The notes under the pieces were generated by a model, which made no database searches, was not told the DNA's origin, and worked only from the letters and a program-made list of their open reading frames with translations. A DNA stretch of 41,465 nt from an uncultured Spirochaetaceae bacterium (lineage in GTDB: Bacteria; Spirochaetota; Spirochaetia; Sphaerochaetales; Sphaerochaetaceae): positions 1 through 41,465 of the forward strand of contig CALXLA010000037.1 of assembly GCA_944389075.1 (NCBI GenBank). The letters are read 5' to 3'. The position numbers were made by a program, and so were the translations under genes. Numbering within the stretch: the first letter of the stretch is position 1; each line of letters begins with the position of its first letter. Positions 4,138 to 41,465 of the stretch are shown here, one piece after another.

Positions 4138-5280
4138 ATGAATTACAGGAGACTTGGGAAGACAGGACTAATGGTAAGCGAAATAGGACTTGGTGCGGAA
4201 TGGCTTGAGCGCCATACGGCTGAGGAAGTCGCGGGAATCATCTCCTACTGCGAGAGCAAAGGCATAAATATACTCGATTGCTGGATGTCGAATCCGAAAG
4301 TCCGCTCAGATATCGGCAACGCAATAGCAGGAAAACGCGATAGATGGATCATACAGGGACATCTCGGTTCAACATGGCAGAATGGACAGTATGTGAGGAC
4401 AAGGGATCTTGAGAAAACGGAGGAAGCCTTCCAGGATCTTCTCACGCGCTTTCAGACCGGCTACATCGACCTCGGAATGATCCATTTCGTCGATGAGATG
4501 GATGAATTCAGAACGATAATCGATGGCGAGTTCTACCGCTATGCAAAGAATCTGAAGGACAAAGGTACGATACACCATATAGGAATGAGCACTCACAATC
4601 CGGAAGTCGCCAGGACAGCAGCTGAAAGCGGACTGATCGAGATGATTCTCTTCAGCGTCAATCCAGCCTTCGACATGCTTCCGGCAACAGAGAATATCGA
4701 TGACTATTTCACTGACTCCTTTTATGAGAACGGCGGCGGCATAACCCCGGAGAGAGCTGAGCTGTACAGGATCTGCGAACAGAATGATGTGGGCATCACC
4801 GTAATGAAAGGCTATGCTGGCGGAAGGCTGTTCAAGGCAGAGACATCACCTTTTGCTGTAGCGCTCACACCTGTACAGTGCATCCATTACGCGCTGACGA
4901 GACCTGCTGTCGCAAGCATACTTGCAGGCTATGATTCAAAGGAACATGTAGATGCGGCAGTTGCCTATGAGACAGCAACACAGGAGGAAAAGGACTATGC
5001 CACAATCCTCGCGAAAGCCCCAAGACATGCATATTCCGGGCAATGCACATACTGTGGCCACTGTGCGCCATGTCCATCAGGCATAGATATCGCAATGGTC
5101 AACAAGCTTCTTGATCTTGCTCTTATGCAGGATGAGATACCAGCTTCCCTGCGGGAACACTACAGAAGCCTTTCCGCAAATGGCAAGGACTGCATATCAT
5201 GCAGGAGCTGCGAGAAGCGATGCCCATTTGGCGTAAGCATCGCAGAGAGAATGAAGCAGGCAGAATCCGTATTCGCCTGA
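4138..5280 (+). CDS. Aldo/keto-reductase-like protein with C-terminal 2x[4Fe-4S] ferredoxin domain
   Basis: Residues 1-290 follow the AKR barrel (MNYRRLGKTGLMVSEIGLG at the start, IHHIGMSTHNP and TRPAVASILAG later). The C-terminal part has two four-cysteine sets, CTYCGHCAPCP and CISCRSCEKRCP, expected to hold two [4Fe-4S] clusters. The usual DTA-x-x-YG catalytic segment reads DCWMSNPK, so the catalytic Tyr is absent, and the T-K segment reads QGH, so the Lys is also absent; the His in MIHFVD remains. A redox role is likely, but classical carbonyl reduction is doubtful. GGAGG sits 4 bases before the ATG. Its stop codon directly abuts the stop of the convergent XdhC gene (TGA|TCA). Confidence 0.9.
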   Translation: MNYRRLGKTGLMVSEIGLGAEWLERHTAEEVAGIISYCESKGINILDCWMSNPKVRSDIGNAIAGKRDRWIIQGHLGSTWQNGQYVRTRDLEKTEEAFQDLLTRFQTGYIDLGMIHFVDEMDEFRTIIDGEFYRYAKNLKDKGTIHHIGMSTHNPEVARTAAESGLIEMILFSVNPAFDMLPATENIDDYFTDSFYENGGGITPERAELYRICEQNDVGITVMKGYAGGRLFKAETSPFAVALTPVQCIHYALTRPAVASILAGYDSKEHVDAAVAYETATQEEKDYATILAKAPRHAYSGQCTYCGHCAPCPSGIDIAMVNKLLDLALMQDEIPASLREHYRSLSANGKDCISCRSCEKRCPFGVSIAERMKQAESVFA

Positions 5281-39824: not shown

Positions 39825-39854
39825 AAAAAGTCCACCGCATCTCTGCAGTGGACT
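39825..39854 (-). terminator. Terminator after the beta-helix lipoprotein gene
   Basis: AGTCCAC (39829-39835) pairs with GTGGACT (39848-39854), with a further GCA/TGC pairing at the tip. On the minus strand a TTTTT run follows. It may also serve the convergent MATE gene. Confidence 0.75.
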
Positions 39855-39916
39855 AGATTCAATTATCTGAAGGCCCATATCAGGGTTGCTTCCAAAAATC
39901 GATAAGATTCCCAAAC

Positions 39917-40657
39917 TTACTGAGCATCTGCAGGTGCTGTTGTTGTGTGTGTACCACACTTTACAATTGCACCGTTATTATCAGTTGAAATTCTCTCTGC
40001 AACAGCCTGATCTGTTTCAGTACCTGTCTTTGAGAGTACGTTGATATCGGTCTCTCCCACTCTTTCAGTAAATGTATTTCCAGTCAGGGTAACAATAGCT
40101 TCTGTCTCCAGATCAACCTTTGTGCTTCCTGTGATTGTATTGTTTCTTACAGTAGCTTTTGTCATACCAGCATTATTCTCATCGAAATAGAAAGGCATAC
40201 GGCAGTCTGTGAATACAGAACCCTCAATAGTTGCATTATCGCCTTCAACGGTTATTCCTCTGCCAGTTCCTGTGCTTGTCAGCGAAATATCATAGAAACG
40301 AACATTATCAGCACCCTGTGCTACATTGATGATCTCATCGTTATTACTTCCGGAAATTGCGAGCGATTCAACACTGACAGTACTTCCTGTTATGACAATT
40401 CTATTCGCACCAACTGTAATTGCGGCATCATCATCTGCACCTTTAAGAGTCACTCCATCAACACTTACCTCAAGGTCTTTTGTGAGGGTAATCGTACCAT
40501 CGATAATTATTGTCTTCTCGCCAGCTGTAGCCGCAGCATCAAGCTTTTCAATAAGGTCATCTTCTCCTGTTACAGTTACACTCGGTGTCGATGGATTGCA
40601 AGCAGTAAAACCAAATACTACCATTGCAGTAAGAAGAGCTATAAGAAGCTTTTTCAT
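39917..40657 (-). CDS. Surface lipoprotein with right-handed beta-helix repeats
   Basis: The 246-residue protein has a lipoprotein signal with lipobox FTAC (Cys20). The mature part consists of short repeated strands: KTIIIDGTITLTKDLEVSVDGVTLKG, RIVITGSTVSVESLAISGS, VRFYDISLTSTGTGRGITVEGDNATIEGSVF, TVRNNTITGSTKVD, VTLTGNTFTE. This is the pattern of a parallel beta-helix (pectate-lyase-like coil). No catalytic residues are evident, so adhesion, glycan binding or a structural surface role is possible. AGGAGG lies 10 bases before the ATG. Its promoter spacer has a run of eight G, suggesting phase-variable expression. Confidence 0.87.
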   Translation of the reverse strand: MKKLLIALLTAMVVFGFTACNPSTPSVTVTGEDDLIEKLDAAATAGEKTIIIDGTITLTKDLEVSVDGVTLKGADDDAAITVGANRIVITGSTVSVESLAISGSNNDEIINVAQGADNVRFYDISLTSTGTGRGITVEGDNATIEGSVFTDCRMPFYFDENNAGMTKATVRNNTITGSTKVDLETEAIVTLTGNTFTERVGETDINVLSKTGTETDQAVAERISTDNNGAIVKCGTHTTTAPADAQ

Positions 40658-40691
40658 ATTCCAATTTCCTCCTATGGATATTACTGCACTG

Positions 40692-40724
40692 ATTTTACCC
40701 CCCCCTCTGGTTCAATTCTGTCAA
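40692..40724 (-). promoter_or_regulatory. Promoter with G8 tract in its spacer, upstream of the lipoprotein
   Basis: On the minus strand a perfect TTGACA (40724-40719) and TAAAAT (40697-40692) are separated by 21 bases, of which the last eight (40705-40698) are all G. Slippage in the tract would change the spacer length, which is now longer than the 17-base optimum. Confidence 0.6.
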
Positions 40725-40817
40725 CCTTTTACTTGTGAATTCACCCCTCCCCGGTAAGCTTTTGTCAACATGATTCTTCTCCGTCTTTTACCTTCGGAGG
40801 ATTTCATGGAAAAATTT

Positions 40818-40921: not shown

Positions 40922-41465
40922 GTGATCAAGCATATCTCTATCACAGGCTACAGGATGAGGCCTGTTCATGACATATTGTCACGTTCTTTCGTTTCTGCCA
41001 TAGACAGGACCGCTTCATTCCTGGATATGGACCTCACCGATTTCATCAGCGGGCTTGATGGCTTTGAATGGAAGCCTGAAGGAAGACACATGAAGTTCTC
41101 TCAGGAACTCTACTCCTCCATTCCCGGGACAAAGGCTGCAACTCGCCCTGCTTTGATATCACTGCAGAATGCAGCTGATGGATTGGGAATATCGCTTGAG
41201 GAATTCATTGAGAGATGCTCCGTTTCCGATGACGGGATAAGGAAGACAAGGGTAAGCTTCGGTCCGCTTCCGATGAGGACTGTAGCGGTGCTGTTCATAG
41301 CCTTCAGATGCATAGACAGCTGCTATGACATGAGGGATCTGAGGACCGACTACTCGGCATATGGCGGATGGGATATATCGCTGATCAAGCTCAATGAGGT
41401 GCTTGATGCCATATCCATGTCATATGATGATTTCCTCAGTCTGGCGGATTCAGATGAGATTGAAG
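40922..41465 (+). CDS. Unrecognised protein with XRE-like helix repeats (3' truncated by window)
   Basis: A frame open from the GTG at 40922 to the window end encodes at least 181 residues. GAAGGA lies 5 bases before the GTG. Three 16-residue blocks align without gaps: IDRTASFLDMDLTDFI (27-42), LQNAADGLGISLEEFI (81-96) and LNEVLDAISMSYDDFL (157-172). They resemble the last two helices of Cro/CI-type HTH domains, and RPALISLQNAADGLGISLEEFIE in particular reads like such a domain's end. DNA binding is only inferred, as the recognition helices are not clear. The codon style matches neighbours. No stop is seen. Confidence 0.7.
   Translation, partial: MIKHISITGYRMRPVHDILSRSFVSAIDRTASFLDMDLTDFISGLDGFEWKPEGRHMKFSQELYSSIPGTKAATRPALISLQNAADGLGISLEEFIERCSVSDDGIRKTRVSFGPLPMRTVAVLFIAFRCIDSCYDMRDLRTDYSAYGGWDISLIKLNEVLDAISMSYDDFLSLADSDEIE

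Follow-up and report, generated by a model that had tools for sequence, protein, structure and literature searches.

In the passages of PMC7864442 that deal with them, TP0126 of T. pallidum carries a poly-G tract between its -35 and -10 boxes and is transcribed best when the spacer measures 17, and porA of N. meningitidis has a poly-G in the same position that sets the spacing, the optimum being likewise quoted as 17; the earlier note on this DNA had likewise named promoter tracts as switches of outer-membrane genes in T. pallidum and Neisseria. The tract of T. pallidum tprL ranges from 7 to 11, nine being the commonest length (PMC7864442), and among clones of T. pallidum 24 of the 46 poly-G/C tracts of at least 8 were found in variant lengths, as was none of the shorter ones (PMC10013896). 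In the vlp system of M. hyorhinis the promoter of every lipoprotein gene contains a homopolymer tract of its own, and each gene is switched independently of the others (PMC10502178). A search of the literature for phase variation in Sphaerochaeta found nothing, and a survey of homopolymeric tracts published in 2010 deals with coding genes; the mechanism discussed here is already known, and what is new, within the literature searched, is its use across an uncultured genus of spirochaetes.

The window, that is, the whole stretch of 41,465 nucleotides that was analysed, is contig 37 of a 2.23-Mb genome assembly, the other stretches of which were read around their G tracts. Its features are the following:

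40719-40724, minus strand: -35 box TTGACA, from the sequence, kept across the promoter family of the genus
40706-40718, minus strand: spacer before the repeat, GAATTGAACCAGA, of 13 nt where 9-10 are usual, from comparison of the genus promoters
40698-40705, minus strand: poly-G tract GGGGGGGG, eight G between -35 and -10, from run counts and shuffles
40692-40697, minus strand: -10 box TAAAAT, from base conservation at the sixth position in the genus
40668-40673, minus strand: ribosome binding site AGGAGG, from the sequence
39917-40657, minus strand: lipoprotein gene of 246 aa with lipobox FTAC, plausibly a beta-helix, from signal peptide, profile match and model
39829-39854, minus strand: terminator hairpin 3' of the lipoprotein gene (z -4.1), within a repeat also present at several other poly-G lipoprotein loci
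40738-40768, minus strand: broken second promoter TTGACA-N10-GGGGAGGGG-TGAATT, at a mosaic join between two poly-G loci
40922-41465, plus strand: divergent gene, truncated where the contig ends, with at least three copies in the genome beside poly-G lipoproteins

Read on the minus strand from 40724 to 40692, the promoter is TTGACA-GAATTGAACCAGA-GGGGGGGG-TAAAAT, with a spacer of 13 + 8 = 21, and 34 nt separate it from the ATG (40657) of the 246-aa gene, the product of which starts with MKKLLIALLTAMVVFGFTAC, a lipoprotein signal peptide with its lipobox. The coordinates, both boxes, the 21-bp spacer and the eight G given in the earlier note were all correct when the sequence was read again. Boxes recognisable as -35 and -10 thus enclose a run that reaches eight G, which is the arrangement of TP0126- and porA-type switching. 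The likeness to TP0126, as well as to tprE/G/J and tprL, is that of one spirochaete to another, with about 7-11 G between the boxes of an outer-membrane gene, and the tprL range of 7-11 is much the same as that of the genus treated here (8-12), although the tract of tprL overlaps with its -10 region; porA shares the position of the poly-G, but is a single porin gene of an unrelated bacterium. In T. pallidum, moreover, it is a few genes of porin type that are concerned, whereas here it is a repertoire of lipoproteins that share both promoter and leader.

GGGGGGGG is the only run of G or C longer than six within the 41-kb window. By itself a G8 run is unremarkable, with 0.45 expected per window and at least one present in 29 of 100 shuffles; the full unit of boxes and tract, searched as TTGAC-N6..14-G8-TAnnnT, appeared in none of the 100 and is not a product of chance. 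A chance homopolymer or an assembly artefact could still be argued from the expectation of a G8 run in about three of every ten such windows, and from the contig ending in a repeat 760 bp from the tract, yet it is exceedingly improbable in view of the absence of the whole unit from the shuffles and its recurrence, as TTGAC-N5..15-G8-TA, in 37 of the 48 independently assembled genomes of the genus; a single genome has as many as 14 sites, and the reversed control pattern yields no site at all. A chance G run as the source of the unit is ruled out by the shuffles together with these genus controls.

Within the same genome, GGGGGGGGTA occurs 16 times against three occurrences of the reversed control pattern, and runs of eight or more G are found at 18 distinct places. 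Half of these (9/18) sit between a TTGA-type -35 and a TAnnnT, 32-42 bp 5' of a lipoprotein start codon, on nine contigs, so that the check proposed in the earlier note, a search for other lipoproteins with poly-G leaders, gave eight more behind the same unit besides the window gene. Their leaders are alike (MKKLIVIALSAMMLFAFTAC and variants), while their bodies are different or distantly related, the nearest in the genome having 32% identity over 113 aa. A search of the genome with the leader peptide, blind to the promoter, retrieved nine genes, and all nine carry a G tract, be it pure, short or interrupted: seven are pure tracts of 8-10 G, one is G6-T-G3 and one G6. The nine lipoprotein genes each with their own homopolymer promoter recall the vlp family, in which a common leader also precedes different bodies; this likeness is one of architecture, kinship of the proteins not being expected, and differs in that the vlp tracts are poly-A and gathered in one clustered locus, whereas these are poly-G and dispersed over nine contigs.

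The tracts outside the lipoprotein promoters sit in the usual genes of contingency switching, namely HsdS, a restriction helicase and glycosyltransferases. One (L164, C4:26699-26707) is a G9 inside an HsdS fusion in which two HsdS-like halves are joined in frame, and another (L168, C27:17292-17301) is a G10 that throws a large restriction helicase/methylase out of frame; both are likely to be phase-variable restriction systems. Two further tracts (L176, L177) lie within glycosyltransferase genes or at their starts, and one (L166) where a small protein of outer-membrane type has its signal peptide. In another lipoprotein gene (L178, about 4142-4150) a poly-C, C9 on the minus strand, apparently lies just past the lipobox cysteine, with the frame read by eye, and seems to be a translational rather than a promoter switch.

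At the level of the family, 51 of 139 genomes, from 5 of 22 genera, contain TTGAC-N5..15-G8-TA, most of them belonging to the genus of the window and one neighbour, and the well-sampled genus g16 has a G-tract promoter in just one genome. The neighbouring genus g2 (G054-G069) has similar G-tract promoters, with 16 as the commonest spacer against 19 in the genus of the window. Of 69 genus promoters read with their flanks, 66 had a downstream frame, and in 57 of the 66 a lipobox followed, by a loose rule; two more loci (L232, L233), not among the 57, are also lipoproteins. In 98% of 65 genus promoters a T stands at the sixth position after the tract, and since the search had demanded only TA, the -10 box can be argued to be real. 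Starting from the protein, the window lipoprotein found 17 matches in the genus, and 15 of them have a G tract before the gene: 10 pure tracts of at least 8 G and 5 interrupted by one A or T (for example GGGGTGGGGG), the remaining 2 having none. Beyond the family, TTGACA-N-G8-TAnnAT occurs in many gut-associated clades (L047-L126), among them Clostridia, Lachnospiraceae, Saccharibacteria and Spirochaetes, and the spacers of at least 82 such sites in other bacteria peak at 16 and at 18-19, both observations coming from a scan run without a control pattern; poly-G promoter switching may be widespread among gut bacteria.

Across 150 promoters of the genus the spacer spans 15-22 bp, 19 being clearly the commonest length (68 promoters), followed by 18 (31), the tract has 8-12 G with a mode of 9, and the non-repeat part measures 9-10 nt in 118; in about a third the spacer is 18 or less at G8-9. 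A compensation between the length of the tract and that of the remaining spacer was considered and dropped, the relation being weak and not significant. Where promoters of one genome are identical up to the tract, the number of G differs in 15 of 18 groups (8 and 9 within one genome, 9 and 12 within another), a comparison of paralogues within a genome rather than of alleles, with one genome per species; the pattern is what slippage would leave.

Tracts interrupted by a single base, which for that reason should hardly slip, are found before lipoprotein genes at several loci (L303, L304, L312, L314, L315, L325-L354). Among 22 of them the spacer is exactly 19 in 16, against 68 of the 150 pure tracts (Fisher p 0.02, post hoc), a difference that falls to p 0.24 when restricted to promoters with the usual 9-10-nt part. 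These interrupted tracts are possibly locked switches, with a hint that 19 bp may be the spacing that is worth preserving. The same figures, together with the fact that interrupted tracts stay rich in G, could be turned to another account, namely that the G-rich spacer is a fixed feature, such as a regulator site or a structural element that favours a spacing of 19 bp, in which changes of length are incidental. We consider this improbable, for most members retain a pure tract of 8-12 G, the length of which varies between near copies, and tracts of this kind are also found inside coding genes, where a promoter role is impossible.

What the genomes display directly is a common architecture that is enriched and goes with lipoproteins, together with differences in tract length between promoters that are otherwise alike. 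The best explanation, and one that we consider quite probable, is slipped-strand phase variation of the spacing of sigma-70-type promoters over a repertoire of lipoproteins. During replication the G run would gain or lose single G by slipped-strand mispairing, the number of G would alter the distance between -35 and -10, and this distance would switch transcription of the lipoprotein. As the same G-run promoter stands before the lipoprotein repertoire throughout the genus, its bacteria probably switch these lipoproteins on and off at random through gain and loss of G; and since at least nine lipoproteins of this genome would each be governed by their own G-tract promoter, a population could show many combinations of coat proteins. 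Exposure of these lipoproteins on the surface, and a benefit in the form of evasion of host or phage, would complete the scheme. Two points speak against a switch of spacing: the window spacer, at 21, is well removed from the mode of the genus, and that mode is 19 rather than the textbook 17, or the optimum of 17 in TP0126. The proposal in the earlier note of a candidate phase-variable surface antigen is thus well supported in its first half, a phase-variable lipoprotein, by the recurrence in genome and genus, the protein-first search and the differences in tract length, while surface location and antigenicity are presumed from the class of the protein. A more ambitious version, in which the whole genus would have a combinatorial coat of up to about 14 promoter-leader units per genome that switch independently, with the tracts acting as crossovers for promoter shuffling and the interruptions locking a preferred and working spacing of 19 bp, not 17, seems to us rather unlikely as a whole.

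The window copy departs from its relatives. Its spacer of 21 is at the long end of the 15-22 bp of the genus because the part preceding the tract has 13 nt instead of the usual 9-10, a length that it shares with only 3 of the 150 genus promoters. A spacing of 19 bp would need G6 and one of 17-18 bp would need G4-5, in other words a loss of 2-4 G, so that the suggestion in the earlier note, that losing a few G would bring the boxes to optimal spacing, holds in its direction, the spacer being too long; its ease is doubtful, since the G4-G6 tracts that result probably slip rarely, and such a loss may be no easy switch here. The promoter is also, by sequence comparison, a mosaic of two poly-G loci: 41000-40739 of the window matches the poly-G locus of contig 38 at 93% identity, and 40748-40643 matches that of contig 36 at 91.5%, with the join within GGGGAGGGG (40752-40744) and a broken copy of the promoter remaining upstream. 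Given the 13-nt part, the 21 bp at G8 and the mosaic promoter, the assembled allele is predicted to be weak or OFF, and it may switch back only rarely.

From here it could be supposed that the window holds a worn-out or locked-off member of a family the rest of which switches, a fusion of two loci with a spacer too long to be rescued by slippage. The length of the spacer, the rare 13-nt start and the join with its broken promoter upstream are all in keeping with this; on the other hand, both boxes, the G8, the ribosome binding site and an intact 246-aa frame are retained, and an A ahead of the tract is seen in further copies within the genus, so we entertain it only tentatively. An orthologous locus was not found in another species, and similarity at the DNA level beyond the genome itself consists of short stretches.

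As regards the protein, the earlier note had ascribed beta-helix repeats to it. The window lipoprotein matches no Pfam family at E<=0.001 and has a weak match to NCBIfam TIGR03805 beta_helix_1 (E 6e-6, 25.5 bits, below the cut-off of 141.5). An AlphaFold model from the single sequence shows short, regular strands together with a cap helix (residues 21-130 at pLDDT about 70-90; mean of the model 61), and its fold matches, of low TM, are mostly right-handed beta-helix enzymes, pectate lyases among them, the best being 7xks (E 6e-4, TM 0.30). A beta-helix is thus plausible for this protein, if weakly supported; another member of the family (L171) scores above the Pfam Beta_helix cut-off. Other poly-G lipoproteins differ from it in having bodies of unrelated kinds, one of which gives a weak Ig-like match, and therefore the switch is tied to the lipoprotein leader and not to the beta-helix.

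The divergent gene, of about 280 aa, ends contigs 36, 37 and 38 and begins contigs 13, 41 and 50, and it is this repeat that breaks the assembly (loci L172, L173, L235, L236, L237; L232, L233). In genome G022 two of three homologues are likewise divergent and adjoin a poly-G lipoprotein; the gene was rejected as an obligatory partner of poly-G lipoproteins, being present in just 2 of the 48 genus genomes. Its product matched none of the protein families or solved structures searched, its structure model (pLDDT 38) is unusable, and its C-terminal part, by eye, is possibly a helix-turn-helix. On the other side, the terminator-like sequence belongs to a dispersed repeat (window 39829-39880, minus strand; L169 4833-4907; L172 3371-3429 and 4326-4383; L173 1668-1724), which may help whole gene units to recombine.

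Poly-G phase variation in spirochaetes has been documented in the agent of syphilis, a bacterium that is hard to grow and to manipulate. The uncultured genus described here appears to use one standard G-tract promoter for much of its repertoire of lipoproteins, so that the rules of spacing, switching and locking could be read from existing metagenomes, as tract lengths in raw reads over dozens of promoters; and if 19 bp were the ON spacing, this would cast doubt on 17 bp as the spacing to which tracts of this kind are assumed to tune promoters.
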